From NCBI RefSeq assembly GCF_000166295.1, contig NC_017506.1, positions 2,232,001-2,296,000 on the forward strand: a stretch of 64,000 bases of DNA, given 5' to 3'. Positions 4,095 to 26,073 of this stretch are shown one piece after another (position 1 is the stretch's first letter; every line of letters starts with the position of its first letter). The position numbers were made by a program, and so were the translations under genes. Origin of the DNA: Marinobacter adhaerens HP15. GTDB lineage: Bacteria; Pseudomonadota; Gammaproteobacteria; Pseudomonadales; Oleiphilaceae. Below the pieces are notes generated by a model. The model was not told the DNA's origin, did no database searches, and saw nothing but the letters and a program-made list of their open reading frames with translations.

Positions 4095-4124
4095 TTGCTG
4101 TCCAGTGCCCTAGCTGGACAGCAA
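4095..4124. terminator. Bidirectional hairpin between convergent genes
   Basis: TTGCTGTCCAG (4095-4105) and CTGGACAGCAA (4114-4124) form a perfect 11-bp stem with an 8-nt loop. It lies between the symporter stop and the convergent TonB-like gene and overlaps the latter's stop codon (4110-4112). Position and symmetry suggest it ends transcription from both sides. No long T tract is present. Confidence 0.6.
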
Positions 4125-5111
4125 TTCGATCGGATAACGGATCTTGGTTTGATCAACGCCCGGTCGGGCCCCGAAATCCACCAACCTCAGACGATTGCAG
4201 ATCTTGCTCTCCAGCGCCGGCTCATTGAGTGTAGATTCCACCACCGAACAACTCGATACTGCACCGTTCGGCTCAATGACCAACTCCGGGGTAATACTTC
4301 CCTGCAGCGACGGTTTGCGCCGAAGCTCCCGGTTGTAGATGCTGTAGATCGCGGATTTGTTGGCATCCATGGTCCGGCGCAACTCTTCCTTGCTCCGGGT
4401 TCTGGCCGCAGTTTCCTGCTGTTCCTTGCGTGCCGCCTCTTTCACCGCAGCAACTCTCTCTGCTTCGGCAACTTCCGCGCGCTGACGCTCGGCCAGGGCG
4501 ACCTGACCGGCCTCCCGGTTGAGCACTTCCTCGTTCACCCCACTGCTCTTCGCGCTCGCGGTCGCGCGCGAGGCCAAAGTATCACCGGTTTTGCGGGCAA
4601 TAGGTTCCGCTGTATTGGCAACCGGGCCGTCCAGCTTGACCGACTCCGCCAGCGAACTGAGTTTCTTCAGTTCGTTCCCCATTGCGAGAATACCGGTATT
4701 CTTTGCCTTCTCCCGCGCCTTGGCGACCTCTTCAGGCTTGGGTTCTGGCTTGGGCTCCGGTTTTTCGGCTACCTGAGGCTCCGGCTCGGGTTCCGGCATC
4801 ACCGGTTCAGGAACCGGCTCCGGCTTGGGCTCTGGTTTGGCCTGTTCCACCGGCTTTTCCTCAGGCTTCGGCGGTTCGGGCTCCGGCTCGGGCAACACCG
4901 GTTTTGGGGGCTCCTTTTTCTCGATGATCAGCTTGGCCAGCTGAGGCGGCAGAGCTTCCTGTTCCTGCCTGTCACGTTCTGGCAGCTCTACCCAGCTGAC
5001 ATAACCTGCAATTGCAAGGAACAATGGCATCACAAAAACAGCGGCGGCCAACAACCGCTTACGTTCACCACGCTCCTGATTCCAGGGCAATCCGTACCGA
5101 TAATCCATCAT
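4110..5111 (-). CDS. TonB/AgmX-like energy-transducer protein
   Basis: 333-aa inner-membrane-anchored periplasmic protein. After a short cytoplasmic N-terminus there is one membrane segment (about residues 20-38), then a long Pro/Glu/Lys-rich spacer (about 65-130) of the TonB/TolA kind, and an Ala/Glu-rich helical stretch (about 165-240). The C-terminal domain of about 80 residues, with RKPSLQGSITPELVIEPNG, resembles the AgmX/PglI C-terminal or TonB-like fold. It begins 2 bp after ExbD2, so it should be the transducer of the ExbB-ExbD complex. Its partner is unknown. It is the last gene of the long minus-strand cluster. Confidence 0.8.
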   Translation of the reverse strand: MMDYRYGLPWNQERGERKRLLAAAVFVMPLFLAIAGYVSWVELPERDRQEQEALPPQLAKLIIEKKEPPKPVLPEPEPEPPKPEEKPVEQAKPEPKPEPVPEPVMPEPEPEPQVAEKPEPKPEPKPEEVAKAREKAKNTGILAMGNELKKLSSLAESVKLDGPVANTAEPIARKTGDTLASRATASAKSSGVNEEVLNREAGQVALAERQRAEVAEAERVAAVKEAARKEQQETAARTRSKEELRRTMDANKSAIYSIYNRELRRKPSLQGSITPELVIEPNGAVSSCSVVESTLNEPALESKICNRLRLVDFGARPGVDQTKIRYPIELLSS

Positions 5112-5113
5112 GG

Positions 5114-5614
5114 TCAGGCTCCCTGTTCCGCACGCTGATTAACCGCCAGGGAAATACTGGCGTAACCGGCGTCCACACAGGTGGACATGATTTTTTTCAG
5201 CAGCTCGTAGGGCAGTTCGCGGTCTGCAAGAATGGTAATTGGTCGACCCGCATCCGGGGCAGGTGCCGACGAGCGACTGGCCTGATAGTCCAGTTCCTGC
5301 TTCAGGGCAGGCTCCACCTGTCCGTCAAACGTCTGGAAGGCGTCGCGTTTCACTACCAGCCGACCGTTCACCAGGATATCCCGGTCTGTGACGGTGAGGG
5401 CCAGGACGTCACCAGGGGGTTGCTGAGCGGTGGAATCCGGCAGTTTGATAGTGTTGTTCTGGTTCAATACCTGTACGTCGGAGGAGGAGTTCACCATCAG
5501 GAAGAACACCAGGATGGTGAAGATATCCATCAACGAGACCAGGTTCATCTTTCCCTGGCTTTTATTGCGCCGGTAATGGCGTTTCTGGCGGCGGGCCTTG
5601 GCAGATTCTTTCAT
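5114..5614 (-). CDS. ExbD/TolR biopolymer transport protein (second copy)
   Basis: 166 aa. A basic N-terminus leads into one membrane segment (about residues 24-44) containing SLMDIFTILVFFL, with the Asp expected of the proton-conducting ExbD/TolR family. A periplasmic ExbD domain follows. The ATGA overlap (5611-5614) with the preceding exbD implies translational coupling. Two different ExbDs with one ExbB and a TonB-like protein is the arrangement seen in specialised TonB-type systems. Confidence 0.88.
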   Translation of the reverse strand: MKESAKARRQKRHYRRNKSQGKMNLVSLMDIFTILVFFLMVNSSSDVQVLNQNNTIKLPDSTAQQPPGDVLALTVTDRDILVNGRLVVKRDAFQTFDGQVEPALKQELDYQASRSSAPAPDAGRPITILADRELPYELLKKIMSTCVDAGYASISLAVNQRAEQGA

Positions 5615-6123
5615 GAACTCACCTCCGCGGATCCCGAAGGCTGTGCGGGCGCATCGCCGAGAGAGATCTCGGGGAACAGCTCCGCTTCAACCACACTACC
5701 AGCCACTACTGCCTCGTACGAGCGCACCGTGTCCATCACCGAGACCAGAGACTGATAGGACGTCTGCCGGGACGGCATAATAATCACATCCTTTTTGTCG
5801 GGCACACGGCTCTTGATTTCCTTCATGACATCCTTGAGCAGAACGAAATCATACTCGCCCTCGCGCTGGGGGATGTTCTTGATGACGCCGCCCTGGTTAT
5901 CCGCAACGACCAGGCGATCCTCATAGATCACCACCTGGATCTGCAGCTCTTCCGCCTGCTGGGCCGACAGGCTCTCACCGGTCGGGAAGTTGAGTTCCAG
6001 AACGCTGGTGTGGGCGAACACCATATTCAGCAGCAGTACCGGCACCAGCACAATCATGAGATTCATGAAGGGCGTGATGTCGAGATCGGCCTCACTTTGT
6101 AGGCGACGATGTTTCCGTCTCAT
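5611..6123 (-). CDS. ExbD/TolR biopolymer transport protein (first copy)
   Basis: 170 aa. The basic N-terminus and the motif DLDITPFMNLMIVLVPVLL are typical of ExbD/TolR, with Asp at the start of the single transmembrane helix (about residues 18-38). The rest is the periplasmic domain. It lies 25 bp after exbB and overlaps the second exbD by 4 bp. It should form a proton-motive-force-driven motor with ExbB. Confidence 0.9.
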   Translation of the reverse strand: MRRKHRRLQSEADLDITPFMNLMIVLVPVLLLNMVFAHTSVLELNFPTGESLSAQQAEELQIQVVIYEDRLVVADNQGGVIKNIPQREGEYDFVLLKDVMKEIKSRVPDKKDVIIMPSRQTSYQSLVSVMDTVRSYEAVVAGSVVEAELFPEISLGDAPAQPSGSAEVSS

Positions 6124-6148
6124 GGCCTGACATCCTTCTGGCTGGTTA

Positions 6149-6856
6149 TCAGGCCGGGCTACCGGCCGGAGTCGCTACCTGTGCCGGCGCAGCGGCATTC
6201 TGTCCCTGTGGTTGAGCGGCGGTCTTACTGCCAGAACCATCGCTGAGGAGGTTCAGGACCTTGATGCCCGCCATCTCAAAGCTGTCGACGATCTCATTGG
6301 TCTTGGTCTGCAGCAGTGAGTGGATCAGCAGCATGGGAATTGCAGACATAAGGCCGAAGGCGGTGGTGTTCATGGCAACCGAGATACTCTGGGACAGAAG
6401 GCTCGCCTTCTGGGCCGGATCCGCTGCAGCTACCGCGGTAAACGCTGCAATCAACCCAATAATGGTACCCAGCAGGCCGAGCAGCGTGGCAATGTTGGCC
6501 AGCGTGGCCAGATACTGGGTACGCTTTTCCAACCGCGGCATCACATCCAGCAACCCCTCTTCCATCGCGTATTCGATCTCTTCACGACCCTGGCGGCGGG
6601 CCAGGCGCTGAAGGCCGAAGCCGATCATGGTCGACATGGCACTACCGGATTCCTGGGTGTAGTTCAGGGCGCCCTTCAGGTCACGCTTGGCGATCATCTG
6701 ATGCAGGCGGTTGAAGTCCCGACGGTTGGTCAGTTTCTGGGCGGAAAGGTAAACGTAACGTTCAATGGCAACAATGAGTCCGACAATCAGCACAACTGCA
6801 ATCGGAAACATAAAAAAGCCACCTTCCTGGAAGAAGCGAACGGCGGTATCGATCAT
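6149..6856 (-). CDS. ExbB/TolQ/MotA-family proton channel
   Basis: 235-aa inner-membrane protein with three hydrophobic segments (about residues 15-35, 115-140 and 155-180). The conserved region LATLANIATLLGLLGTIIG followed by FGLMSAIPMLL is diagnostic of the MotA/TolQ/ExbB family. The C-terminus is Ala/Gln/Pro-rich. It starts the ExbB-ExbD-ExbD-TonB module. The 139-bp gap upstream is the largest within the minus-strand cluster and could hold a separate promoter for this module. Confidence 0.92.
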   Translation of the reverse strand: MIDTAVRFFQEGGFFMFPIAVVLIVGLIVAIERYVYLSAQKLTNRRDFNRLHQMIAKRDLKGALNYTQESGSAMSTMIGFGLQRLARRQGREEIEYAMEEGLLDVMPRLEKRTQYLATLANIATLLGLLGTIIGLIAAFTAVAAADPAQKASLLSQSISVAMNTTAFGLMSAIPMLLIHSLLQTKTNEIVDSFEMAGIKVLNLLSDGSGSKTAAQPQGQNAAAPAQVATPAGSPA

Positions 6857-6995
6857 TTTCTGGGCACTCCATGGTCCGGTTTTCAGATCAGTCTAAGCGC
6901 GTCACTCCCCTGCAAGGGTAAGTTCGCGAAAGTCTGTGTGAGGGTTTGTTTAATCTTGCGCAGGAACACACTCATGACGTGACAGGCATCACACT

Positions 6996-7301
6996 CTACT
7001 GCCCTGTGTTGGCCTGGGTCTGTTTGATAAACGCTTCGTGGTACTTGATAAAACGCTGGAACTCATAGCGTTCCAATGGCCGGAGACCCTGATCAACCAT
7101 CAGGCGTTCTTCTGGCGCACGCAACTCGTCCACTTCCGGTGGCTGCCAGGGCACCAGATACATCACCGTAGGCACTTCCTGATCGCCACGGATTCGCGTG
7201 CCCTCAATGGTAACCACACCCGGAGCGTCCTGGGCGAAGACCATCGGCGCCGTGGGCACCAGCGCGGAAACTGCCAGAGCGATTAGCGCGAGACGTTTCA
7301 T
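6996..7301 (-). CDS. Small exported protein of unknown function
   Basis: 101 aa with a clear Sec signal peptide (about residues 1-23, ending VFAQ). The mature part of about 78 residues is acidic/aromatic and contains EGTRIRGDQEVP and WQPPEVDEL. I recognise no domain. It lies between the TPR lipoprotein (15 bp upstream) and exbB and is probably a periplasmic component of the same system. Confidence 0.7.
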   Translation of the reverse strand: MKRLALIALAVSALVPTAPMVFAQDAPGVVTIEGTRIRGDQEVPTVMYLVPWQPPEVDELRAPEERLMVDQGLRPLERYEFQRFIKYHEAFIKQTQANTGQ

Positions 7302-7316
7302 ATCACATAGTCCACA

Positions 7317-7886
7317 TCAGATTCTGTTTTTGGCATCGAAGATCCAGTCTTCCAGTCTGGGGTGCGGCTCACTGGCCGCGGACTGATAACGCTCATAAAG
7401 GTCAACCGCCTCGGCAGGTTTACCCAGGTAGATATCAAGCAGGAAGGCCAGATTAAGGATCGCAGGCGCGTAATTCGGATCAGCAGACAGTGCCGCGCGA
7501 TAATACCCTTCTGCTTCGTCGAATTCTCCGGCATTCCGGGCAATTACTCCCAGATGATTCAGCGCCTGGACATGTTCAGGATTCACCGTGAGCGTGCGTT
7601 CAAACCAACTTTTCGCGGTCTCGGTATCCTCTTCCTGGAACGCAATAATGCCAAGGTTGGCCATGGGGCCGGCTTTTCCGGGGTAGTCGCTCGCCAGTTG
7701 CTCGAATCGGGTTTTGGCCTCGGCAAGATTTCCCTCCTCCATGGCACTCACGGCCTTGGCGAATGACGCTTCCAGTGCAGCTTGCTCAACTTCTGCCTTA
7801 GACTCCGGCGGCGCCGGCGCCGTCACACACCCCGAAAGCGAAAAAATCACGAAAAGACAGAGTCCGCAGGCCTTAATCGAGCTCAT
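7317..7886 (-). CDS. TPR-containing lipoprotein
   Basis: 189 aa. The signal peptide ends in a lipobox (LSGC), so the protein should be a periplasm-facing lipoprotein. About four tetratricopeptide repeats cover residues 40-170, including a motif around WFERTLTVNPEHVQALNHLG. ATG 7886 is used because AGGGGG lies about 7 nt upstream; a TTG two codons earlier is less likely. The gene overlaps the end of the large TPR gene by 14 nt, indicating coupled expression. The role is probably scaffolding. Confidence 0.82.
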   Translation of the reverse strand: MSSIKACGLCLFVIFSLSGCVTAPAPPESKAEVEQAALEASFAKAVSAMEEGNLAEAKTRFEQLASDYPGKAGPMANLGIIAFQEEDTETAKSWFERTLTVNPEHVQALNHLGVIARNAGEFDEAEGYYRAALSADPNYAPAILNLAFLLDIYLGKPAEAVDLYERYQSAASEPHPRLEDWIFDAKNRI

Positions 7887-10758
7887 AGACAACCCCCTGG
7901 GTAACTTCTTCTTTCCGATAACGTCCGGGCAACAGGGCTTTCAAGGCCTCGTAACTGCGCTTGACCCATTCATCGAAAATGCCCTCCCGGGCCCGCCGGA
8001 TATTCTGCTCGTGGATATCGATGGCGTTGTCCTCAAACGGGTAGGCCTGCTCTTCCAGGAGAAGCTCGTACTGAGCCAGTTCAAGCTCGCTCAATCCGGT
8101 GGGCCGCTCCGAGTCCATGAGATCGGCACCGAGGCGTGCATAGATGTGGGCGATCTGGTAACCAGCCTCGGTTGCAAATGATGAAAGGCCATAGCTGGCC
8201 GTCTTCTTGTAGGCGTTGACCGCTCGTTCAAGCGCATCGGTCTTCGCTGTCATGCTTTGATTGAGTGGCAGAGTCAGCCTGATGCCGTCATACCGGGCAA
8301 GGGCGTCGCGGGCGAGGATTGCAGAGGCTGACGCCGCAAGGTACCGCATGCGATCGTCGGCGGCGTCCGGGTCCCGGTCCACCGTTTCCATCTGCTTTCG
8401 CAACCAGTAATCCCTGCTTTCGGCATCCCCGTCTTCCTGATAGAGCTCAGCCAGCCGATTGGCCGCTTCCATGTAGACGTCCGTCGGCTCGGGGTGGCTG
8501 TTGGCGTAATTTCGCCAGGTATCAATCGCCTTCTCCCGGTTACCGGCCTGATCGTACAGTTCTGCTGCAATCAACAGGTTTTCCCTTCGCTCTTCCGGCG
8601 TCTTGGCGAGGGAGACCATTTGCTGGAGTTCGTCGGCGGCTCGCTCCCACTGCTCCGTTTCACGGTAGGCCAACGCCAGTTTTGCAGGGACTGTGTCAAT
8701 CAGCTCGTGATTGGGGAAAGACCGCCTGAAACTGGTCAGCACACCGATGGCCTGCTCCCAGAGATTGGCGGTGATAAGAAGTGAGGCAGCATCGTATTCG
8801 GCGTTTGCCCGCAGAGCGGATTCTGGAACGGCCGTGCCGACTCGCAGGAATTCGCTCACCGCAGCCTCCACATTTCCGGCATCAGCTAACTGCTCCGCCT
8901 GTCGATAGACCGCGGCTGCCAGATTTTCACGAACGCCGCTTCTGCGTTCATCGTCTTCGGCCATTGTTGCCAGGGCGTCACGATAAGCCTGTTCCGCCTC
9001 GGCGTATCGGGCCAGTTCGGAGAGGCTGTGCCCGGATAACAGCAAAGCTTCCGTCGTCAATTCATCCGGGGGCGTGGGTTGCCAGGTAACAAGTCGGGCC
9101 GCCATATTGACGGTCTCTTCCCAGTTGTTCAGGTCAAATTCACGCTGCAGCGCAATGTAATACACCGCCGGCGCCCGGGCGTCGCCGGGAAACGCATTTG
9201 CGAACCGCAGCCGGTTCAGTTGTTGCAGCTCCTGATAGGCCATCCGCTCCGATACCGGTTCACTCTCCCAGGTTTGCGAGTACTCCCGGAATGCCAGCAC
9301 CGATGCATACCCGGCTTCAGCTGCCCGATCGGCTACTGTGTCTTCCGGATAGTCATAGGCCACGCGTTCGAAAGCTGCGATTGCTGCCGGCCAGTCTTCC
9401 AGCTCCAGGTAAGTCTCACCCAGAAGGAACAGCCGCTCCGGTGTACGGGGGTGGTCCGGGAAGGTAGCCGCAAATTCGGCGTAATAACTGGCGGCTTTGC
9501 GGTAATGATCGTCCGCCTGCTGATCATCCTCCGCCTCCCCTGCCAGCAGGTACTGGCGGTCCGCCAGTTCCGGCAACAGTTGTTCCAGTTGTTGCTCGAT
9601 GAAGCCAATTGCATCGGGGCCCGCTGACTGCCAGTAATCGCTGTAGATTCCGTAAAGGCTGACAAAGCCGGCCTTTCGTTCAGGGATCGTACGGGTGAAA
9701 CCGGCCAGCTCAAGGGTATCAATGATCCGGATGTGGTAGCGCGGCGCCCAGGGACTCTCCGGATGGTCTTCTATGTAGGCCTCGAAGACATCGATGGCAT
9801 CACTGTATTGCTCTCTCTCGAGCAAGAGCTCGCTGTAGCGGTCGTAGACCAGTATTTCGTAGGGGCGACCACCCGTTTGGCGGAAAAGCGCCTGGAGGGT
9901 TTCCGCTCCGTCAAGGTACGACAGGGACAGCCCTACCACCCTGAACAGATCTTCGATCAGTGTCTGGCTCCGCTGATCCACGTCCGCCACCGGCCTGCCC
10001 TCGGGCATGACAAGATCAAGCACTTCAACGTAACTGAAGAGCGCTTCCTGGTATTGCGCCTGCTTGAACAGACTCCAGCCCTTCATGTAATGCGCGTTCA
10101 CCAGGAACGAGGGATCGGCCATGCGTTCCTGGCTCGCGAGGGTAACCTCGTCGAAAGCCTGTTCCGCTTCCCCGTATCGACCATCGATAAACAACAGATC
10201 GCCGCGGCGGAATTGAGCCTCAACCCAGTATTCTGAATCCGGGTAGCGGCGAACCAGAGTATTCAGGGCTTCAAGCTGCTGCGGCGTCGCGCCTCGAAGC
10301 TCCCAGGCTCTGGCAAGCTGATAATAGATCTGGTCATTGCCCTCACGCTCTGGATATTCCGACAGAAGACGCTGGTAGGCATCGATGGCGCCGGACAGTT
10401 CATCGACAGCCGAATCCGCCATTTTCCGCTCCGCACGCTGGAATTCCAGATCGGCCAACCGATGCCTGATGGTAACCTGCTTGCGGGGATCCTCTACGAG
10501 TGGCAAAAGCGCCTTGTAACTGTCCATTACCGTTTCAATGGAAACATCTTCTGCGGGGTCGCTGACCGCCGCTGCATCTGCACTTTCCTGCCGCGTTTCG
10601 ATCGCCGGAAGCGCAGCCAGTGTGCCCTCACGGACTCGCGGCATTTCTTCGCCACCGGCAGGCATCATCGACTGCAACATCTGGCAGCCACTCGCCATGA
10701 CAAGGGCCCCAACCATGAGGAGGCCTTTAACAGTCCTGCCGGCCATCCGATTATTCAT
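7873..10758 (-). CDS. Large TPR-repeat lipoprotein
   Basis: 961 aa from ATG 10758, with a lipoprotein signal peptide (VMASGCQM). Tandem TPR-like helical repeats fill most of the chain, recognisable from recurring A-x3-F/Y-x3-YP patterns such as FDEVTL and YYAEFAATFPDHPRTPE. The start overlaps the stop of the upstream gene (ATGAATAA). An upstream extension to 10905 is possible but has no signal peptide. Likely an outer-membrane-anchored periplasmic scaffold, comparable in design, not in proven homology, to TPR proteins in myxobacterial AgmX-type envelope machines. Confidence 0.82.
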   Translation of the reverse strand: MNNRMAGRTVKGLLMVGALVMASGCQMLQSMMPAGGEEMPRVREGTLAALPAIETRQESADAAAVSDPAEDVSIETVMDSYKALLPLVEDPRKQVTIRHRLADLEFQRAERKMADSAVDELSGAIDAYQRLLSEYPEREGNDQIYYQLARAWELRGATPQQLEALNTLVRRYPDSEYWVEAQFRRGDLLFIDGRYGEAEQAFDEVTLASQERMADPSFLVNAHYMKGWSLFKQAQYQEALFSYVEVLDLVMPEGRPVADVDQRSQTLIEDLFRVVGLSLSYLDGAETLQALFRQTGGRPYEILVYDRYSELLLEREQYSDAIDVFEAYIEDHPESPWAPRYHIRIIDTLELAGFTRTIPERKAGFVSLYGIYSDYWQSAGPDAIGFIEQQLEQLLPELADRQYLLAGEAEDDQQADDHYRKAASYYAEFAATFPDHPRTPERLFLLGETYLELEDWPAAIAAFERVAYDYPEDTVADRAAEAGYASVLAFREYSQTWESEPVSERMAYQELQQLNRLRFANAFPGDARAPAVYYIALQREFDLNNWEETVNMAARLVTWQPTPPDELTTEALLLSGHSLSELARYAEAEQAYRDALATMAEDDERRSGVRENLAAAVYRQAEQLADAGNVEAAVSEFLRVGTAVPESALRANAEYDAASLLITANLWEQAIGVLTSFRRSFPNHELIDTVPAKLALAYRETEQWERAADELQQMVSLAKTPEERRENLLIAAELYDQAGNREKAIDTWRNYANSHPEPTDVYMEAANRLAELYQEDGDAESRDYWLRKQMETVDRDPDAADDRMRYLAASASAILARDALARYDGIRLTLPLNQSMTAKTDALERAVNAYKKTASYGLSSFATEAGYQIAHIYARLGADLMDSERPTGLSELELAQYELLLEEQAYPFEDNAIDIHEQNIRRAREGIFDEWVKRSYEALKALLPGRYRKEEVTQGVVYELD

Positions 10759-12694
10759 CACCGGCACCTGCAGTTTGCGATGCGCGGAACAACTGGTCCG
10801 CCAGCCTCGCCTGGGCGTGGCGAGAGGCCAGCAGGTATCCATTAAGCTCCTGTTGCTGGGCAGCCAGCATCCGATCAACCTGCGCCAGGAGTGTTTGCCG
10901 GGCACTGCCTAATGCCTCGGACACCTCTGTTCCAAGAGTCGCGAGTTCCCGTTCGCTGGCAGCGATCCGACGAGCCAGTTCCGCATGGCGGGCATCATCG
11001 GCCATCAGGCTTTCAACCCGTTGCCGCTGGGCCTGAAAGCTCTGCATCTCGCGATCCAGTTGCATGAGCTGTTTTTGCGCCGCCCAGCGATTGATTCCAT
11101 AGTCATCCGCAATCCACCAATCGAAGTAGGCACGCATCCGCCGATACGTCGCACGCTGCCTGGCGGTCGTCGCGTCGTCAGGCAAATCCGCCAGAGTTTC
11201 CTCCACCTCATCGAGCTTGTCTCTGAGCGCTTTTTGTTGCGAGGTCATGAAGAATCCCGCATCTTCGTCTGCCAGCGCCGAGGAAATTCTGTCCGTGAAG
11301 TCCTCGTGCAACTGCTGCCACTGGTCTGCCTGTTGGGTTTCGAGTGCCCGACGGGTCTCGGCAATACGAATCTGCCGTTGCTGCTCACGGGTCTCCAGCA
11401 TGATCCGGAACGATTCAAACCTGGACTGCCGCTCGGCAATGAAGGACTGCATTCGGTAGAGTTCGTTCAATTCGGCAAGCGCCTGCTGGAACGTTTCCGA
11501 AGCCAGCACTTCCGCCATACCAGAATCGAGGGGCTGCACGCGCAGCCGGCCATAGGAATCTGTAAGAATCCCATCGCTGTCACGGCTGAACTCAAGCTGG
11601 GCCATCAGACTTTCTTCATTCAGCCGATCCCGGATATTGTCGAGCTCCCTGATACGGGCCTCGTAATGGTCGGCTGCCTTTTTAAACGCAGGCAATGCTC
11701 GCTGTGGAGCGTTCATCTGCTCAAGAACATAGGCGCGGGCAAAGGGAACCTGCTGGCGCCAGGGCAAAAACAGTTCACGGTTCGCGAGAGTATCAAGGGC
11801 GTCGAGAGCCCTCTCCGGCCTGCCCTGGCCCGCCGCGGCGACGGCGTAGTCAAAGAGAGCCTGATCGGCGAACACGCCGGTCAGTGGCATGGCTCCCAGG
11901 ACCTCCAGAGCTGCCTCAAACTGGTTATCACGCAAATACAGGCCCGCAAGCGAGAGGCGAGCGCGGCCCAGCAGGCCCTCCCGTTCGGCATCTGGCTCGA
12001 CGGAGTCAATGGACTCGTCGAGGATGGCGATGAGCTTTTTCAGTGCCTCTTCGGCGGCAGCTCCGTCTGCCGCATCGAGAGCGGAGACCGCGGAATTGTA
12101 CCGGAGGTAAAGGGACCAGATGTCCGTTTCGTCCAGCTGCTCCCGAAGCGAAGTCAGTTCGGGTTCATCATCAGGGCGGGCAGACATCATGACCAGCCGG
12201 GAGCGCAGATAAATCCATTCGCGGAAAAGATCGTGGTCGGCCTCGGCCAGTATCTCGCCATCGACACGATCGAGGTTCTCACGTGCGAGCGCCTGATTCC
12301 CCTCGAGGTAAAACACCTTACCGAGATAGAACCAGGCCTGGTTGCGAACATCAGGCGACAGATTGCTGCCGGCGCCATCGGCCCCGAGTAGCTGCGTAAA
12401 CAACCTGCTCGCCTCTCGGGTCATCCCCCAGGACAGCATGAGCCCGCCCTCGACGAGAGCCGGATGATCTCCGTGTCCCTCGATGCCGCCCCGTTCGCGC
12501 GCCACGGCCAGCTGGGTCAGAGCCTCGAAGGCGTTACCCTGATGGTATTCGTACAGCGCCCAACCATAACGAAGGTCCTTCGCCCGCTCGGGTTGCGCCT
12601 CGTCGGCATGAGCCGGAGTCATCATCAGCCACAGTAGGGCACCCGCGTAAATGAACGGGCGTCGACCTGAGGACTGGCTTGCTTTCAATCCCAC
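10751..12694 (-). CDS. Exported TPR/coiled-coil protein of unknown function
   Basis: About 647 aa. A signal peptide (cleavage near MTPAHADEA) is followed by TPR-like repeats (about residues 40-330) and a long Gln/Arg/Ala-rich coiled-coil region (about 330-640) with many short heptads. GTG 12694 is chosen because GGGAG lies 10 nt upstream; GTG 12712 overlapping the previous gene is an alternative. The end overlaps the next TPR gene by 8 nt. I recognise no named family. Context makes it a periplasmic structural component of the same machine. Confidence 0.72.
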   Translation of the reverse strand: MGLKASQSSGRRPFIYAGALLWLMMTPAHADEAQPERAKDLRYGWALYEYHQGNAFEALTQLAVARERGGIEGHGDHPALVEGGLMLSWGMTREASRLFTQLLGADGAGSNLSPDVRNQAWFYLGKVFYLEGNQALARENLDRVDGEILAEADHDLFREWIYLRSRLVMMSARPDDEPELTSLREQLDETDIWSLYLRYNSAVSALDAADGAAAEEALKKLIAILDESIDSVEPDAEREGLLGRARLSLAGLYLRDNQFEAALEVLGAMPLTGVFADQALFDYAVAAAGQGRPERALDALDTLANRELFLPWRQQVPFARAYVLEQMNAPQRALPAFKKAADHYEARIRELDNIRDRLNEESLMAQLEFSRDSDGILTDSYGRLRVQPLDSGMAEVLASETFQQALAELNELYRMQSFIAERQSRFESFRIMLETREQQRQIRIAETRRALETQQADQWQQLHEDFTDRISSALADEDAGFFMTSQQKALRDKLDEVEETLADLPDDATTARQRATYRRMRAYFDWWIADDYGINRWAAQKQLMQLDREMQSFQAQRQRVESLMADDARHAELARRIAASERELATLGTEVSEALGSARQTLLAQVDRMLAAQQQELNGYLLASRHAQARLADQLFRASQTAGAGDE

Positions 12695-12702
12695 GACGCG
12701 GC

Positions 12703-13254: not shown

Positions 13255-13273
13255 GGTCGTTCTTCCTGCATGC

Positions 13274-14434: not shown

Positions 14435-14657
14435 AGCCACCCCCAGAACCGCCTTCTGCTCCCCGCGCAGACTCCCGGGACTGATAGACGTGATGCATAT
14501 AGGAATCCGCCTTGCCATGACGGCTGAGACTCATGACCGGATCCGCCAGATTATCCCGTTCATAGGGTTTTACCCACGGCTTGATTGAGCTGCATCCAGA
14601 GATCGTGAAGGTCGCGACCAAAAGAGCAGAGGCAGTGAAGATCGACAAATTACGCAT
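14421..14657 (-). CDS. DUF4266 small lipoprotein with Gly/Cys tail
   Basis: 78 aa. A lipoprotein signal peptide ends in ISGC. The mature part has the DUF4266 signature: KPWVKPYERDNLADPVM, then HHVYQSRESARG, and the C-terminal glycine/cysteine tail ending GGCGCN. The tail cysteines could bind metal, accept a cofactor or be modified; that is inference. It lies 18 bp after the thioredoxin gene, suggesting redox handling of those cysteines, and overlaps the DUF3570 gene. Confidence 0.82.
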   Translation of the reverse strand: MRNLSIFTASALLVATFTISGCSSIKPWVKPYERDNLADPVMSLSRHGKADSYMHHVYQSRESARGAEGGSGGGCGCN

Positions 14658-14675
14658 AAACGTTCCGTCCGAAAA

Positions 14676-16557: not shown

Positions 16558-16579
16558 GGTGCGAATTTCAGTCCTTGGA

Positions 16580-19282: not shown

Positions 19283-19452
19283 TCCATGACATAAATTAAG
19301 TCGGTTCCGCTGGCAGGCTCCAAGGGTTTTACGTAACGCAATGTAATAACGTGGCCTACGGCTCAAAACGAAGGATATAGCAAGCCGTAAACTTTTAACA
19401 ATTGTCAAAAAGCATTAATGTGCACATGCTATCGATCACCGAGGGAAAGGAC

Positions 19453-20688
19453 ATGACCGCCCGGAACAGGATCAGAAGCCTGCTTTGCAAGGCTTGCAGT
19501 ACCGCAGTTCTCGTCGCATTGGTGTCTGGACAGGCCAGCCTTGTTCAGGCTGGCCCCAGGGAGCAGGCCAAAAGAATTCACGATCGGGTCGCCGGCGTGC
19601 CACCCTCTGAAGTCGTCCTTGACGATATGGCGAGCGACATAGAGTCCGGCAGAGCGATTGATGCCGCCTTCACGGCCATGCAAGACAGCGCTTTCTACGA
19701 CGTCACCCTGAAGAATTTTGCAGCCCCCTGGACCAACGAGGCGATGTCAAAGTTCGTGCCCCTTAATGATTACATTGCCACGGTGATTGGCCTGGTGCGG
19801 GACGGGGAAGACTTCCGAAAAGTTCTGTATGACGATGTTCTTTACATCGGGAATGCATCCCTGAACCTGCCAAACTACTCCACCAGCAACAACAACCACT
19901 ACGAATCCCTCGAGAACAGTGGAGCCAGCCTTAAGGACAACCTGGAGCGGGTAAACCAGTCGACCTACACGGGCCTTCCTCCCTCGGCCACCGCCGGCGT
20001 CATTACATCAAGAGCTTCCGCCCGGGCTTTCTTCAGTGCCGGCACCAACCGGGCGATGTTCCGCTTCACACTAATCAATCACATGTGCAACGACCTGGAG
20101 CAGGTTGCGGACGTTACCTTGCCCACGGACCGCATTCGCCAGGATGTTTCCCGCAGCCCGGGTGGTGACAGCCGGGTATTCCTGAACAACTGCGTTGGCT
20201 GCCACACCGGCATGGACCCCATGACCCAGGCGTTTGCCTACTACGACTACGAGTATGACGCCAACACCGACCCCGATGGAGAACTGGGCAGGCTGGTCTA
20301 CAACGCTATTGGCGAAACAGATCCAGAAACCGGCTCCAGGGTTCAGGCCAAGTACCACATCAACTCTGCAACCTTCGAGCAGGGCTATGTCACACCTGAC
20401 GACAGCTGGGATAACTACTGGCGCCAGGGCGCCAATCGCCGACTGGGATGGGATCCCTCACTCCCGGGTTCCGGCAGCGGTGCCAAGAGCCTGGGTATGG
20501 AATTCGCGAATTCCGAGGCCTTCGCAGAGTGCCAGGTCAAGAAGGTGTTCGAGAATGTCTGCCTGCGACCTCCCTCCGACAGCGCAGACCGTTCGCAGGT
20601 AAGCAGTATGGTTGCCAGCTTCGCAAGTCAGGGTTACGACCTGAAGCAGGTATTTGCAGAATCCGCCGTGTACTGCATGGGGGAGTGA
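19453..20688 (+). CDS. Exported protein with one CxxCH haem motif
   Basis: 411 aa with a Sec signal peptide (cleavage near SLVQAG). One c-type haem motif, CVGCH (247-251), is followed by TGMDPMTQAFAYYD, a motif style seen in cytochrome-domain proteins of planctomycete-like DUF1585/1588 families. The rest is not recognised. ATG 19453 is preceded by GAGGGAAAGG. First gene of a three-gene operon; the next gene starts 7 bp later. Likely periplasmic electron carrier or haem enzyme. Confidence 0.75.
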   Translation: MTARNRIRSLLCKACSTAVLVALVSGQASLVQAGPREQAKRIHDRVAGVPPSEVVLDDMASDIESGRAIDAAFTAMQDSAFYDVTLKNFAAPWTNEAMSKFVPLNDYIATVIGLVRDGEDFRKVLYDDVLYIGNASLNLPNYSTSNNNHYESLENSGASLKDNLERVNQSTYTGLPPSATAGVITSRASARAFFSAGTNRAMFRFTLINHMCNDLEQVADVTLPTDRIRQDVSRSPGGDSRVFLNNCVGCHTGMDPMTQAFAYYDYEYDANTDPDGELGRLVYNAIGETDPETGSRVQAKYHINSATFEQGYVTPDDSWDNYWRQGANRRLGWDPSLPGSGSGAKSLGMEFANSEAFAECQVKKVFENVCLRPPSDSADRSQVSSMVASFASQGYDLKQVFAESAVYCMGE

Positions 20689-20695
20689 GGACGCT

Positions 20696-23185
20696 ATGAA
20701 AACATTTAAAGGAATTTCCATGAGCTCCCTCAAATCGGTCCTTGCCATCACTGCCCTGGCCCTTCTGCTTTCTGCCTGCGGGGGCGAATCCACGGAACAA
20801 CTGCCGAATACCTCCCAGAATTCCGGCACGGTTACCTACAACGGGCCTGCCCCCTCGACGGATGATGTAGCCAACTTCAAACGCACCGTGTGGGACAACC
20901 TGGTCACCCAGGATAAATGCGGCGCGTGCCACGGCTCCAATGGCCAGACACCCACATTCGTCAATGAGCAGGACGTTAACCTTGCTTACGCACAGGCGAA
21001 CTCTATTGTTAACCTGTCTGATCCATCCCAGTCCACAATGGTGACAAAGGTCGCAGGTGGCCACAATTGCTGGCTCCAGAGCACGTCAGCCTGTGTGGAC
21101 ATTCTCACCACCTATATTTCCAACTGGGCAGGCGGGTCAGAAGGCTCTGCCAAAACCGTGGAACTTCGCGCTCCAGCGCTCAAAGAACCGGGTGCCACGG
21201 TTGCCCTTCCAACCGACACTGGCCTGTTTTCCACCACGGTATACCCCGAACTCAGACAGTATTGCAGCGACTGCCATGCTGATGGTGGGCAAACCCCTTA
21301 CATTGCCAGCGCCGATGTTACTACTGCCTACGATCAGGCGAAAAGCCGTATTGATCCTATGAATCCGGGCGCATCCCGACTGGTTGAACGTCTGCGCTAC
21401 GACTTCCACAACTGCTGGGACGACGACTGCGAAGCCTCAGCCGATTTGATGGAACTGAAGATTCTTGAAATGGTCCAGGATCTGAGCGCCCAACCCGTGG
21501 ACCCGGCAATCGTTGCTAGCAAGGCACTCAACCTGCAGGCAGACGGCCTGCTCGCAAACTCCGGCGGCCGGTTTGAAGACAACGTGATTGCCCTGTACGA
21601 ATTCAAGTTTGGTGAAGGCCAGACTGCCTTTGATACCAGCGGCGTATCGCCAGCGCTGGATCTGACCCTGAGCGGAAACGTTGACTGGGTTGGCGGCTGG
21701 GGCATCGACCTTGGCCCGGCGGGCGAAAACGAGCAGGGCTTCATGATCCCCGCGGGCAAGGCCCAGGGCAGCACCACCGCCAGCCGGAAGCTGCACACCC
21801 TGCTGACCGCCTCCGGCGAATACAGCATCGAGGCCTGGGTCGCCCCGGGCAACATTACCCAGGAAGATGCCCGGATCGTGACCTACTCCGGCTCATCCAC
21901 CACCCGCAACGTCACCCTGAGCCAGTCGCTCCAGCGTTACGAGGTACTGCATCGCAGCACCACCAGTGACGAAAACACGCCTTTCGCAACCCAGGACGCC
22001 GACATGCTCCTGCAGGCAACGCTCCAGCACGTAGTGGTTAACTACACCCCGGCGACCGGTCGCCAGATCTTTGTGAATGGCGTTCCAACCGGCGATGTTG
22101 ATCCGGACGACGGCGGACTACTGACCGAATGGGACGACAGTTTTGCCCTGGTCCTGGGCAACGAGACCGATGGCAACTCGCCCTGGCAGGGCGCGATCCG
22201 GATGGTCGCCATCCACAATCGGGCGCTGACACCGGAACAGGTCCAGGCCAACTTTGAGGTGGGCGTTGGCCAGAAGTTCTACCTTCTGTTCGGGGTCTCT
22301 CACCTGATCGACCTGCCCGAGAGCTTCATCGTGTTCGAAGTCAGCCAATTCGACAGCTACGCCTACAGATTCACCAGTCCCTTCTTTATCAGCCTTGATG
22401 ACTCCGTCGAGCCATCAAATATTCCGCTGCGTGGCATGCGACTGGGTATTAACGGCAAGGAGGCAACGGTGGGACAGGCCTGGGCCAATCTGGACGTTAC
22501 CCTCGACAGTGGCAGCTATGAACCGGGTACTGGGCAACCTCTCTCCTCCCTGGGCACCATCATCGCTCTTGAGAATGGGCCCGGAAACGATGAGTTCTTC
22601 CTGACGTTCGACCAACTGGGCGGAAACAACTTTGCCCGCTCCGAACCCTCGCTGCCGCCGCAGCCGGAACCCGCTGACCTGCCACCGTCATCGGAGATCG
22701 GCTTGAAGACTTTTGACGAGATAAACGAGTCCATGTCGAGGATGACCGGTGTTCCCACAACCAATCAGGCTGTATTCAACACATACACCACCGTGAAGCA
22801 GCAATTGCCTACGGTAGAGACTATTCAGGGTTTCCTGTCCTCTCATCAGATGGCCGTTACCCAGATGGCCATCCAGTACTGCGATGCCCTGGTCTCAAAT
22901 GCGCAGCTTCGGGACCAGATGTTCCCAGGGTTCGATTTCTCCGCCCCGGCCAGCACCGCCTTCGACCACGGTGGCAAGAGCCTGGTTACCGGGCCATTGC
23001 TGTCGCGCTTTGTGGGCAGCAACCTGGCATCACAGCCTGGTGACAGCGCAATCGAAACGGAGCTCAGCGAGCTCATGGATAGACTGACCAGCTGTGATAC
23101 AGGGTGTGAGCCTGACCGCACAGAAACAGTCGTGAAAGCAAGCTGTGCCGCCGTGCTTGGCAGCGCCACCACCCTGGTTCAGTAG
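20696..23185 (+). CDS. Lipoprotein with two CxxCH motifs and a LamG-like domain
   Basis: 829 aa. A lipobox (LLSACGG) predicts a lipid anchor. Haem motifs CGACH (75-79) and CSDCH (190-194) lie in two similar N-terminal segments, each followed by a histidine/Trp/Cys stretch (GGHNCWLQ, YDFHNCWDD), so the region looks duplicated. A LamG/concanavalin-like domain spans about residues 300-520 (EYSIEAWVAPG, LGNETDGNSPWQG). The C-terminal 300 residues are unassigned. ATG 20696 has GGAGTGAGG upstream; ATG 20720 with AAGGAA is an alternative. Combines electron transfer with a carbohydrate- or protein-binding fold. Confidence 0.78.
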   Translation: MKTFKGISMSSLKSVLAITALALLLSACGGESTEQLPNTSQNSGTVTYNGPAPSTDDVANFKRTVWDNLVTQDKCGACHGSNGQTPTFVNEQDVNLAYAQANSIVNLSDPSQSTMVTKVAGGHNCWLQSTSACVDILTTYISNWAGGSEGSAKTVELRAPALKEPGATVALPTDTGLFSTTVYPELRQYCSDCHADGGQTPYIASADVTTAYDQAKSRIDPMNPGASRLVERLRYDFHNCWDDDCEASADLMELKILEMVQDLSAQPVDPAIVASKALNLQADGLLANSGGRFEDNVIALYEFKFGEGQTAFDTSGVSPALDLTLSGNVDWVGGWGIDLGPAGENEQGFMIPAGKAQGSTTASRKLHTLLTASGEYSIEAWVAPGNITQEDARIVTYSGSSTTRNVTLSQSLQRYEVLHRSTTSDENTPFATQDADMLLQATLQHVVVNYTPATGRQIFVNGVPTGDVDPDDGGLLTEWDDSFALVLGNETDGNSPWQGAIRMVAIHNRALTPEQVQANFEVGVGQKFYLLFGVSHLIDLPESFIVFEVSQFDSYAYRFTSPFFISLDDSVEPSNIPLRGMRLGINGKEATVGQAWANLDVTLDSGSYEPGTGQPLSSLGTIIALENGPGNDEFFLTFDQLGGNNFARSEPSLPPQPEPADLPPSSEIGLKTFDEINESMSRMTGVPTTNQAVFNTYTTVKQQLPTVETIQGFLSSHQMAVTQMAIQYCDALVSNAQLRDQMFPGFDFSAPASTAFDHGGKSLVTGPLLSRFVGSNLASQPGDSAIETELSELMDRLTSCDTGCEPDRTETVVKASCAAVLGSATTLVQ

Positions 23186-23197
23186 AGGAAGCCGATC

Positions 23198-24757
23198 ATG
23201 TTTATACGCAAATCCCGTAAAAAGCCTTTGGCCAACGGCAGCCCACTGCTCCACGACGATCACGGCAAGCCACGGACCCGCCGCGAATTTATCGCACAGG
23301 GCCTGATGGCAGGCTCAGCGACGGTGTTCGGTGCTTCCCTGTTCAGCCTGTTCGGTAATCCGAGAACAGCATCCGCGGCGCTCTCTTCAGACCTGGAAAC
23401 GCTGAAAGCAAGCTGTGGCATCGCGGTTCAGGGCGCCGGCAAGATTCCGTTTATCTGCTTTGACCTGGCAGGAGGCGCCAACATTGCCGGCTCTAACGTG
23501 CTGATGGGCAAATCCGGTGGGCAAATGGATTTCCTGAGCACCGCGGGCTACAACAAACTCGGGTTACCAGGTGACATGCTGCCGAACGACCCGGCGTTCG
23601 TGAACACTGAGCTGGGCCTGGCGTTCCATTCGGACAGTGGTTTCCTGCGCGGCATTCTCCAGAGCACGAGTGCCGGCACCCGAGCAGGAATCGACGGCGC
23701 CATTATTGCGGCCCGCTCGGAAAACGACACCGGAAACAACCCCCACAACCCGATGTACGGCATCCATCACGCGGGTGCCGACGGCTCCCTGCTCTCCCTC
23801 ATAGGGTCCCAGAGTTCGGAATCCGGCGGTAACTCGCTGGCACCGATGAACCTGATCAACCCGGAGGTTCGCCCCACCAAGATTGACCGGCCATCAGACG
23901 TTACCGGCCTGGTAGATGTAGGCGACCTGATTGGCATTCTGGATCAATCAGACGCGGTCGCCGTGATGGAATCCATTCAGCGCATCAGCGACGCCAAGAT
24001 GAATCAGGTCAACACCGGCATCTCTACAGACGACGTCGTCAAGGATCTGGTTCGTTGCGGCTACATCAAGAGTGCAGACCTGGCAGACCGCTTCGGCAAT
24101 CCGGCAGAACTGGATCCAGAGCTGGACCTCGAAATCGTGGGCCCTACCGGCATCTTCACCCGCGATGAGTTCAATAATAACCGTGAGTTCCGCAAAACTG
24201 CGTCTGTCATGAAGCTGGTGCTGAACGGCTACGCTGGCGCCGGCACGATCACCATGGGCGGCTACGACTACCATACGGGTGAGCGCGGAACCGGCGAGCG
24301 TCGTGATGAACAGGCCGGTCGGTGTATGGGCGCCTGTCTGGAATACGCCGCCCGGGTAGGAATGCCATTGATGCTCTATGTGTTCAGTGACGGCTCGGTG
24401 TCGAGCAACGGCCGAATCGACGATTCCATGGACGGTCGTGGCAAGGGCGAATGGACCGGCGATAACCAGCAGACGGCCGCCTCGTTCTTCCTGGTTTACA
24501 ACCCGGCGGGCCGCCCCGCTCCGATTCGCAGGCAGATCGGCTTCATGCGCTCTGATGCGTCGGTGGAAACGGCCTCCAGTCCTGCGGCCAACAACGTCAA
24601 CCAGTTGGTTCAGACCGTGCTGCTCAACTACATGGCATTGCACGGGGAGCAGGGTGACTTCGGTACCCGTTTCAACGGCCACGGGCTGGGCAATGGGACA
24701 TCTCAGGACAGCCTGATTGCGTTCTCGAATGTCGTGAACGGCACTATCGGAAATTGA
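23198..24757 (+). CDS. Tat-exported DUF1501-like protein
   Basis: 519 aa. The N-terminus has a twin-arginine signal (TRREFIAQG, Arg28-Arg29) and an Ala-rich hydrophobic stretch ending near ASAA, so it should be exported folded by Tat. The mature part contains GGYDYHTGERGTGERRDEQ and VFSDGSVSSNGR, reminiscent of the DUF1501/alkaline-phosphatase-like fold. It starts 12 bp after the LamG-cytochrome gene. Tat export implies a cofactor bound in the cytoplasm or pairing with a folded partner. Function unknown. Confidence 0.75.
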   Translation: MFIRKSRKKPLANGSPLLHDDHGKPRTRREFIAQGLMAGSATVFGASLFSLFGNPRTASAALSSDLETLKASCGIAVQGAGKIPFICFDLAGGANIAGSNVLMGKSGGQMDFLSTAGYNKLGLPGDMLPNDPAFVNTELGLAFHSDSGFLRGILQSTSAGTRAGIDGAIIAARSENDTGNNPHNPMYGIHHAGADGSLLSLIGSQSSESGGNSLAPMNLINPEVRPTKIDRPSDVTGLVDVGDLIGILDQSDAVAVMESIQRISDAKMNQVNTGISTDDVVKDLVRCGYIKSADLADRFGNPAELDPELDLEIVGPTGIFTRDEFNNNREFRKTASVMKLVLNGYAGAGTITMGGYDYHTGERGTGERRDEQAGRCMGACLEYAARVGMPLMLYVFSDGSVSSNGRIDDSMDGRGKGEWTGDNQQTAASFFLVYNPAGRPAPIRRQIGFMRSDASVETASSPAANNVNQLVQTVLLNYMALHGEQGDFGTRFNGHGLGNGTSQDSLIAFSNVVNGTIGN

Positions 24758-24766
24758 CGGAAACTG

Positions 24767-24802
24767 CTCGTTCCGCCCCTAGTCTGATTGGGGCGGAACG
24801 AG
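24767..24802. terminator. Bidirectional terminator between the Tat-protein gene and apbE
   Basis: CTCGTTCCGCCCC (24767-24779) and GGGGCGGAACGAG (24790-24802) form a perfect 13-bp stem with a 10-nt loop, placed between two convergent genes. It overlaps the apbE stop codon (24779-24781). No strong T tract follows on either strand. Confidence 0.65.
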
Positions 24803-25843
24803 GCCTTCTGAAACGTGCATCATGCGCTGATCATCGATAACCACAACATCGATACCTTTCAAACGCTCAATCATCTCCAGTCCCTTTTTGGGCCCGAGCA
24901 CGAAAACCGCCGTGGAGAGGCCGTCGGTTGTCAACGCATCCTCGCCGATAATGGTCACGCTTTGGACACCCTGGACCGATTTGCCGGTCTCAGGCGACAG
25001 GATGTGATGAACCCTTTCTCCCGCCTCATCCACGAAGAACCGCTCGTAGTCGCCGGAGGTGGACACGGCCACATCCTCGAGCGGCAAAACCACCGCGTTG
25101 CGCCCTTCTGAACGGGGGTCCCGAATGCCCACGTACCAGGGCCGGCCCCGCTTGTCCCCTAACAGTCGCATGTCGCCGCCAGCACTCAGCCGGGCATGGC
25201 GAATGCCAAAACTGACCAGACGCTCGATTCCCAGATCCACTGCATACCCTTTGGCGATGCCACCGAGGTCTACCAGAATCCCTGCCTGCCGGTATTCGAC
25301 CGTCTGATCATCCTCATCAAGAATCACATCCCGAAAATTCACCCGCGGCAAGCCGGATCGAAGCTCCTCGTCCGTGGGCTTTTTGCCGGCCCTGAAGTCA
25401 TACAGGTAACCCACTGAGCCAAAGGTGATGTCGAAGGCGCCCTGGCTGAGTAGAGAAACCTCCCGTGCTTTTTCAATCACCTCGAACAACCCGTCACTGA
25501 CTTCTACTGGCCCGTCGGGTGCATTGCGGTTGAGCCTGGAGACCTCGGACTCTTCCCGATAGCGACTCATCTGTTCATCAACCTGATGAAAAACCGCCAG
25601 CACCTCTTTGCCAACCCGGTTCGCCAGCTCGTCATCTTCCGCCCAGAACTCCAGTTCGATAGGCGTTGTCATTGCAGTATCCGAAAACCGATACCACTCG
25701 GCGCTGGCCGACATCGGGACAAAGACAAGCCCCATTGCCGCCACAAGAGACGAAAGAGTCGATCCAATTCCGAATTTCCAGCGCTTTATAGTTACCAAGA
25801 CCCACAAAACTCCATTGGCTGCCGCGAAGCCCACACCGGGCAT
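24779..25843 (-). CDS. apbE: FAD:protein FMN transferase (ApbE family)
   Basis: About 354 aa. ApbE enzymes attach FMN covalently to Thr/Ser of periplasmic redox proteins. Visible motifs are the YREESEVSRLNR region, GAFDITFGSVG, DLGGIAKGYAVD, the SAGGDMRLLG loop and the C-terminal TTDGLSTAVFVLG. A signal peptide ends near MSASAEW. The start is uncertain: ATG 25843 is used, and TTG 25798 would give a shorter signal peptide. No NqrC/RnfG-like target is seen in the window, so its substrate is unknown. Position beside the cytochrome operon suggests it serves that system. Confidence 0.85.
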   Translation of the reverse strand: MPGVGFAAANGVLWVLVTIKRWKFGIGSTLSSLVAAMGLVFVPMSASAEWYRFSDTAMTTPIELEFWAEDDELANRVGKEVLAVFHQVDEQMSRYREESEVSRLNRNAPDGPVEVSDGLFEVIEKAREVSLLSQGAFDITFGSVGYLYDFRAGKKPTDEELRSGLPRVNFRDVILDEDDQTVEYRQAGILVDLGGIAKGYAVDLGIERLVSFGIRHARLSAGGDMRLLGDKRGRPWYVGIRDPRSEGRNAVVLPLEDVAVSTSGDYERFFVDEAGERVHHILSPETGKSVQGVQSVTIIGEDALTTDGLSTAVFVLGPKKGLEMIERLKGIDVVVIDDQRMMHVSEGLVPPQSD

Positions 25844-26073
25844 TTCCGGAAAGTATATCCATTTCTTCGACCGCCGCCGAACCGATTCATGGGAACAACA
25901 GAGGCCAGACAAGATGCAGATCACTAACCTACAATTTGTTACCCAAAATTCCACTTTTGTCCCATTGTTGGCTTCATAATCAGCAGAGACACTAGCGTTG
26001 CTTAACAAATAATCAAAACAATGATTGGCAGCCCTTTTCCCCATTGGCGCTGCAATTCCGGAGGCCAACCTGA

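Follow-up and report, generated by a model that had tools for sequence, protein, structure and literature searches.

A Glt-like motor core joined to a flavin, thiol and haem gene set in Marinobacter adhaerens and other Gammaproteobacteria

Introduction

Whether a proton-driven envelope motor and genes for flavin, thiol and haem chemistry belong to one machine is the question raised by a locus in Marinobacter adhaerens HP15. The locus lies in a 64,000-nucleotide stretch of the chromosome (NC_017506.1, positions 2,232,001 to 2,296,000; hereafter the window, in whose numbering coordinates are given) and comprises 15 minus-strand genes (4110–19282), a divergent plus-strand trio and then, on the minus strand, an ApbE gene. 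An earlier note on this DNA had described these genes and proposed that they form a single undescribed envelope redox machine; window open reading frames (ORFs) and family scans recovered all of the genes it named, each where it had placed them.

We find that this gene set is inherited jointly and is built up in layers across lineages. The genes almost certainly constitute one inherited system, and we put at roughly 0.6 the probability that they encode a single machine of the Agl-Glt/Nfs class that spans the envelope and is specialised for redox chemistry at the cell surface. What appears to be new is the joining of a known motor core to a known flavin module, each half having been described already.

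Gene content and joint inheritance

Read from 19282 downward, the minus-strand run encodes an HzsA-like protein, an SH3-domain barrel protein, an OMP_myx_plus barrel, a TlpA-like thioredoxin, DUF4266 and DUF3570 proteins, a 193-residue protein (h193), three tetratricopeptide repeat (TPR) type proteins (TPR653, TPR964 and TPR191), a small protein (h101), ExbB, ExbD2, ExbD1 and a GltG-like protein. The trio consists of cyt428 (a PSCyt3/PSD2-like cytochrome), a LamG-domain cytochrome and Tat519. With the starts chosen in our analysis, 11 of the 14 junctions in the run overlap or span less than 30 bp, in agreement with the tight packing first reported; the wider gaps are 43 bp (DUF3570/DUF4266), 77 bp (TPR653/h193) and 139 bp (ExbB/h101).

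We searched one set of 369 gammaproteobacterial genomes for h193, the AgmX tail of the GltG-like protein, DUF4266, the HzsA-like protein and Tat519. The h193 protein (12703–13284, minus strand), which is secreted and has no family match, was found in 83 genomes; 85 had an AgmX tail scoring above the cut-off of its model, and 79 had both (p 9e-68 by a Fisher test, which, as elsewhere here, treats genomes as independent); 65 of the 90 genomes with DUF4266 also held h193. Scores for h193 split into two groups, types I and II. Type I occurred in 55 genomes from 30 family codes, 48 of which also held the HzsA-like protein (found in 50 genomes overall at 52 bits or more; p 4e-50), while 46 held Tat519 (50 genomes overall) and 53 held DUF4266. 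This type I count includes 53 genomes at 170 bits or more and two added by hand (G092 and G234, at 167 and 159 bits, both DUF4266-linked); thresholds of 170, 188 and 200 gave the same picture. The figure of 50 excludes seven genomes whose HZS_alpha matches fell short of 52 bits; when these are counted as well, 48 of 57 also have type I h193 (p 3e-43). Among the 107 h193 rows, two weak fragments (G320:C143) were discarded, and the AgmX-tail search used over-cut-off rows alone (102 kept; a few second same-contig rows left out).

The subfamily of h193 tracks the redox set by position as well as by presence. DUF4266 lay within 15 kb of 37 of the 53 h193 matches scoring at least 170 bits, versus 3 of the 52 weaker ones; type I makes up about half (53/105) of sampled h193 matches. 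Within the genus, the HzsA-like protein was present in 19 of 36 genomes, exactly those with h193 at 187 bits or more, and the other 17 had neither. DUF4266 itself was found in 25 of 58 genomes, our own included, and 26 of its 28 matches outside our genome were fetched with their surroundings and searched by tblastn. Sixteen of these loci hold the motor, redox set, trio and ApbE in the window arrangement except for the place of ApbE (h101 was not detected in one, G057), one (G042) has motor and redox set with no trio, three have the pieces on short contigs, and six carry redox-module genes without the motor. ApbE adjoins DUF3570 in two loci from other families (G039 and G057). From a second collection of at least 581 named loci we scanned the 80 best, among them Marinobacter, Oleiphilus, Hahella, Alteromonas, Aliiglaciecola and Shewanella; of the 57 with full 10-kb flanks, 50 hold TPR964, ExbB, both ExbDs and GltG, and 54 hold HzsA, DUF3570 or cyt428. 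Co-conservation of the two halves had been named beforehand as the refuting test, and the reading came through it unrefuted; because of this co-conservation, chance is excluded for the gene set.

Gene orders and layered loci

At least three gene orders are seen for the same set. In the first, that of the window, the trio diverges from the HzsA-to-GltG run; in the second (L219, L236 and L246), the trio precedes h193 and the HzsA-to-DUF3570 genes are divergent; in the third (L251), GltG is followed by the trio on the opposite strand, with HzsA beyond it. Forty type I stretches were fetched: HzsA, DUF3570 and h193 occur with the full trio in 19 and with no trio in seven, the other 14 being short, contig-cut, second pieces or unlinked. 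Across lineages the composition is layered, from the core alone, to the core with barrels and HzsA-like protein, then with TlpA-DUF4266-DUF3570, and then with the trio. Five congeners, for instance, have the core with an HzsA-like protein, two small barrels and a 235-residue protein, and nothing further of the set.

Type II loci show the core by itself. All nine core genes were present in 16 of 20 fetched type II loci and all but one in three (the remaining locus, L203, is not a core), and HzsA, DUF3570, DUF4266 and the trio were not found in any of the 20. A TlpA-like match in L207 and an ApbE match in L203 are the exceptions, and among neighbouring families one reaches four loci and none more. 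Our own genome carries such a second nine-gene Glt-like core without redox genes (L197, G000:C1:1970094-1990093).

Loci of the opposite kind also occur. In seven genomes (G357, G253, G121, G134, G138, G262 and G185) the redox set stands with h193-TPR653-TPR964 and lacks ExbB, ExbD and GltG, and all seven have another locus with h193 and an AgmX tail 8–10 kb apart; where this second locus was fetched (G357, G253 and G262), it holds the motor. In four further genomes (G331, G223, G132 and G362), the contig with the redox set is not the one that carries h193. Motorless redox loci with a motor elsewhere in the genome resemble the arrangement in Myxococcus, where Agl serves both Glt and Nfs, as the passages on Agl in Wartel 2013 (PMC3858216) state.

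These data bear on the possibility that the locus combines two separate systems that are merely neighbours, a Glt-like core and a group of flavin/haem surface enzymes that has a function of its own. The frequent type II cores without a redox set, the six fetched DUF4266 loci without a motor and the mixing of types in the motor trees would all suit that explanation, but it does not account for joint occurrence over 30 family codes, in several orders and even where the loci lie apart, for a distinct h193 subfamily that tracks the redox set, or for the within-genus contrast of 19/19 against 0/17. We consider it very improbable. That the genes form one inherited system is strongly supported, and the interpretation in the earlier note as a whole is partly supported.

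Several loci depart from these arrangements in detail. In Marinobacter salarius R9SW1 (L155, CP007152), HzsA, DUF3570, h193, TPR653 and the barrels each appear as two ORFs, so this copy is degraded or its assembly contains frameshifts. In L121, L127, L128, L132 and L163 a TlpA-like or ApbE gene lies between the Tat protein and h193, and DUF3570/DUF4266 are beyond the fetched 10 kb or missing. One variant Glt-like cluster, in G017, has a small barrel adjoined by genes (L278:5873-12892) for MtrC-family (549 bits), MtrA-family (303 bits) and MtrB-family (448 bits) proteins, all over cut-offs, with a NapC-family and a PdsA-like protein; Mtr genes are absent beside the same variant cluster in four congeners, and Mtr as a regular partner was rejected (1/5 variant loci).

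The motor half

The motor genes were described in the earlier note as ExbB, two ExbDs and a TonB/AgmX-like protein. The first three assignments hold: ExbB (6149–6856, minus strand), an AglR-like proton channel protein, matches PF01618 at 99.6 bits, and ExbD1 (5114–5614, minus strand) and ExbD2 (5611–6123, minus strand) match PF02472 at 64 and 53 bits. For the fourth (4110–5111, minus strand; 333 residues), the AgmX half of the description stood, with an AgmX/PglI C-terminal tail (NF033768, 67 bits against a cut-off of 40), and the TonB half did not (TonB_C, 15 bits against 24.6). Orthodox TonB-ExbBD nutrient uptake was ruled out: the window ExbB did not reach the TolQ/ExbB equivalog cut-offs (ExbB model, 50 of 206 bits), nor did ExbD (20 of 153). 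The group labelled ExbBD-TonB is, judging by these profiles, better read as AglR-AglQ/S-GltG-like, although the gliding_GltG equivalog gave 46 bits, far under its cut-off of 650. The TonB-C/ExbD/ExbD/ExbB operon mentioned in a passage of an RNA-seq study of M. atlanticus (PMC8233155) may be such a core.

The two ExbDs differ at the membrane aspartate. Every ExbD1 homologue keeps it (61 of type I and 19 of type II), and in ExbD2 an asparagine replaces it in the window, in 50 of 61 type I and in 19 of 19 type II homologues (69 in all). The 11 ExbD2 proteins with Asp (L122, L125, L127, L128, L132, L136, L143, L145, L151, L162 and L163) come from named loci, mostly metagenome-assembled genomes with the second gene order. 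One account of AglQ and AglS, in its passage on these proteins, predicts that both carry Asp and gives the choice between homo- and heterodimer as not known (PMC9389320). The Asp/Asn pair argues for a heterodimer and bears on this question for the ExbD-like proteins of Agl-type motors.

Upstream of the motor lie h101 (6996–7301, minus strand), a small protein with a signal-peptide-like start and no family match that is conserved in type I and type II loci, and the three TPR-type proteins, in fixed order. TPR191 (7317–7892, minus strand; lipobox-like LSGC; TPR_2, 61 bits) stands in a GltE-like place, TPR964 (7873–10767, minus strand, in an ORF that reaches 10905; lipobox-like ASGC; TPR_6, 82 bits) in a GltD-like place and TPR653 (10751–12712, minus strand) in a GltC-like place. 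Of the three TPR proteins proposed at the outset, two are clear and the third, TPR653, has a weak match (best TPR E 0.05) with conserved order. TPR964 exceeded the cut-off of the tol_pal_ybgF model (112 against 90 bits) with six repeat stretches, a match that we read as repeats; Tol-Pal or type IX secretion identity was rejected, the TPR matches being merely generic. The GltE model gave 43 of 225 bits.

Two small outer-membrane barrels complete the comparison. OMP214 (15191–15835, minus strand) matches the OMP_myx_plus model TIGR04565 at 158 bits (cut-off 60), and a search with it gave 747 matches, the named ones mostly Marinobacter among the 120 matches listed. Its neighbour (15805–16644, minus strand) combines an SH3 domain (PF06347, 33 bits) with a barrel that falls under the same cut-off (34 bits).

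The passages on the core in Luciano 2011 (PMC3169522) list AglR, Q and S with GltC, D, E and G and one additional gene, and describe a gammaproteobacterial core in one region, "of unknown function", duplicated in two Marinobacter. Set against that account, the window shares an ExbB-type protein with two different ExbD-type proteins, an AgmX/PglI-tailed protein, three TPR-type proteins in one region, small outer-membrane barrels, duplicate cores in Marinobacter and one motor able to serve two adaptors. Sizes in its Table 1 agree for AglR (245 versus 235 residues in the window), AglQ/S (162 and 194 versus 166 and 170) and GltC (673, with very weak TPR, versus 653, with weak TPR), agree roughly for GltD (1191 versus 964) and do not agree for GltE (471 versus 191). 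GltG in that table (640 residues) has an FHA domain, which was not found in the window protein; the window system further differs in an ExbD2 usually without Asp, in showing no sign of gliding and in adding TlpA, DUF4266, DUF3570, ApbE, the HzsA-like protein and the trio. By family and order, the nine-gene motor half appears to match this gammaproteobacterial core complex, with h193 and h101 as candidates for the additional gene. An Agl-Glt/Nfs-class machine is, in our judgement, very probable.

The flavin and thiol module

DUF4266, DUF3570, a thioredoxin-like protein and ApbE occur together in the window. The thioredoxin (14676–15179, minus strand; PF08534, 106 bits) is TlpA/ResA-like with a WCGPC motif, and the DUF4266 lipoprotein (14421–14657, minus strand; PF14086, 83 bits) has a CGC motif close to its C-terminus; WCGPC and this CXC tail are conserved, both DUF4266 cysteines being kept in at least 15 of 16 homologues. 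With the barrel profile matches, these confirm the barrel-like proteins, thioredoxin and Cys-tailed lipoprotein first described. DUF3570 (13274–14518, minus strand; PF12094, 140 bits) models as an outer-membrane beta-barrel in a structure model and Foldseek comparison (the 1000 best chains were compared, here and for Tat519). ApbE (24779–26068, minus strand; PF02424, 270 bits), a FAD:protein FMN transferase whose start is likely inside the ORF, is one of two copies in the genome.

At one position of DUF3570, 80 of 81 homologues retain the pattern D-x-x-[S/T]-[G/S/A]-A-[S/T], and the window protein carries there a putative near-canonical ApbE site, DSVSAAS (residues 102–108). If DUF3570 is an outer-membrane barrel, a covalent flavin would sit in the outer membrane. 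A loss of flavinylation, once suggested by the missing SGAS, was dropped after wider sampling and a review's Gly-to-Ala result; the cyt428 motif ENSGASLK was rejected as an ApbE site, since it lies outside conserved columns.

The same four families adjoin one another in Meheust 2021 (PMC8238504), a study that connects DUF3570 clusters with electron transfer and, in 25 cases, with an iron transporter. DUF3570 proteins there have two canonical [S/T]GA[S/T] sites versus one near-canonical site here, and the window cluster lacks DsbD and joins the barrel to a motor and haem proteins. The description "undescribed" fails for each half, the motor matching the Luciano 2011 core and DUF3570/DUF4266/thioredoxin/ApbE being the Meheust 2021 module, and stands for their union: no paper joining a Glt-type core with the flavinylation module was found in the open-access literature, most subscription papers and preprints lying outside that search. 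A suspected place in the system for the Marinobacter gene MARHY2686 was set aside, its name occurring in none of the papers listed among the literature matches.

Haem proteins and Tat519

Three proteins carry CxxCH motifs, as originally noted, in numbers largely constant among homologues. The HzsA-like lipoprotein (16580–19282, minus strand), with propeller-type repeats, has two (in 68 of 79 homologues); cyt428 (19402–20688, plus strand) has exactly one (75 of 75); and the LamG-domain lipoprotein (20654–23185, plus strand; PF13385, 78 bits) has two (65 of 67). The redox label is well grounded in sequence motifs, and the redox set probably moves electrons at the cell surface.

The HzsA-like protein matches PF18582 (HZS_alpha) at 58 bits and a profile of hydrazine synthase alpha (5c2v) at E 2.9e-16, collinearly over most of its length, with the HzsA fold and two CxxCH in common. 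In hydrazine synthase we take the Tyr ligand to be four residues after the haem His. No Tyr occupies this position after the first haem His in any of 82 HzsA-like homologues, and hydrazine synthesis was rejected on that ground; the window protein also differs in being a lipoprotein, and HzsB/HzsC were not among the cluster genes in family scans, no genome-wide search having been made.

The window cyt428 reaches 15.8 of 25.8 bits on the PSCyt/PSD Pfam models. Its homologues match PSD2 in 18 of 20 cases and PSCyt3 in 16 of 20, at E up to 1 (best 1.2e-5 and 0.009, respectively), and a PDB sequence search gave nothing useful. Tat519 (23198–24757, plus strand), a twin-arginine protein, has by fold comparison the alkaline-phosphatase-superfamily fold; a Pfam scan of 31 homologues returned weak Tat-signal and chance rows alone, and a PDB sequence search was likewise unhelpful. 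A PSCyt3/PSD2-like cytochrome beside a LamG cytochrome and a sulfatase-superfamily fold recalls the planctomycete PSCyt/PSD clusters (He 2017, PMC5615132), although the window protein is very divergent, under Pfam cut-offs and linked to a motor.

Cysteines outside CxxCH are conserved in the HzsA-like protein, cyt428, the LamG protein and Tat519, as would be expected if TlpA and DUF4266 were disulfide folding factors for cysteine-rich surface proteins and passed no electrons to the surface. We regard this as improbable, since DUF3570 and ApbE are kept alongside TlpA/DUF4266, and since the module of four genes is also found where these surface proteins are absent, both among the DUF4266 loci fetched here and in Meheust 2021.

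A rather more credible, though still unlikely, alternative is a trans-outer-membrane electron conduit for extracellular electron transfer or metal reduction/oxidation, in which the motor merely energises assembly or gating in a TonB-like manner without moving any polymer. A conduit of this kind fits the placing of flavin, thiol and haem parts from periplasm to surface, the electron-transfer and iron-transporter links of DUF3570 clusters (Meheust 2021) and the MtrCAB, NapC-family and PdsA-like neighbours in G017. Against it, neither a quinol oxidase nor a multihaem wire is present in the window cluster, CxxCH motifs number only one or two per cytochrome, Mtr adjoins a single one of the five variant loci, and the LamG and phosphatase-fold proteins would go unexplained.

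A possible mechanism

For the redox-specialised Agl-Glt/Nfs-class machine that we favour, the parts suggest a sequence of steps. The ExbB/ExbD1-ExbD2 proton channel would convert proton-motive force into motion of the GltG-like protein, which would drive the periplasmic TPR/h193 adaptor, and the adaptor would act on the outer-membrane barrels (the two small ones and DUF3570). A thiol relay may run from TlpA to the DUF4266 CXC tail, and ApbE probably attaches FMN to DUF3570 Ser108; by way of the thiols and FMN, electrons would then cross the outer membrane, moving to or from the haem lipoproteins (HzsA-like, LamG and PSCyt-type), which may work beside the phosphatase/sulfatase-fold Tat protein. 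The direction of electron flow and the substrate are guesses. Nfs moves glycan around the spore, and by analogy the likeliest substrate would be an extracellular polymer, bound by the LamG and propeller domains, moved, and modified by oxidation or hydrolysis. That a surface polymer is handled by redox chemistry is a tentative suggestion, and equally speculative is the fuller scheme in which an asymmetric ExbD heterodimer motor mechanically works a thiol/FMN-barrel/haem trans-outer-membrane chain that processes such a polymer.

In favour of the machine we count joint occurrence, several gene orders, layered and motorless loci, AgmX and OMP_myx_plus matches over their cut-offs, conservation of CxxCH, WCGPC and CXC, the ApbE site and the barrel model. 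A number of observations weigh against it. The HzsA-like protein was not detected in 7 of the 55 type I genomes and Tat519 not in 9, and they occur without type I h193 in two and four genomes, respectively; the p-values overstate the association because the genomes are related. In the h193 tree, 116 of 117 type I sequences fall in one clade with local support of 0.5, and types I and II are intermixed in the ExbB and ExbD tree. Three named loci (L118, L152 and L162) have the core with no HzsA, DUF3570 or cyt428 in their 10-kb flanks, and an exact [S/T]GA[S/T] site was not found in the window DUF3570. Lastly, the machine is known here from genes, and the TPR proteins are candidate counterparts of GltC, D and E by their place in the order.

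Neighbouring genes

Beyond ApbE, a periplasmic ABC-type substrate-binding protein is split over two ORFs (26074–26688 and 26745–27323); the first aligns with just the leading portion of Peripla_BP_6, and the gene therefore appears to be interrupted. Farther along (33504–46018), an ABC sugar-type transporter, a sigma-54 activator, an FGGY kinase and a glycerol-3-phosphate-oxidase-like protein point to ordinary glycerol uptake and use.

Implications

Myxobacterial relatives of this motor serve gliding and spore coating, as passages of Wartel 2013 (PMC3858216) describe, and its union with the redox set gives a first testable idea of what the motor does outside myxobacteria. Motor and redox set each provide the other with a partner, which can be tested in Marinobacter, Alteromonas or Shewanella. 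If the proposed machine is real, proton-motive force and electron transfer would be coupled in one surface machine, and the loci described here would represent a major specialisation of the Glt core found in Gammaproteobacteria.

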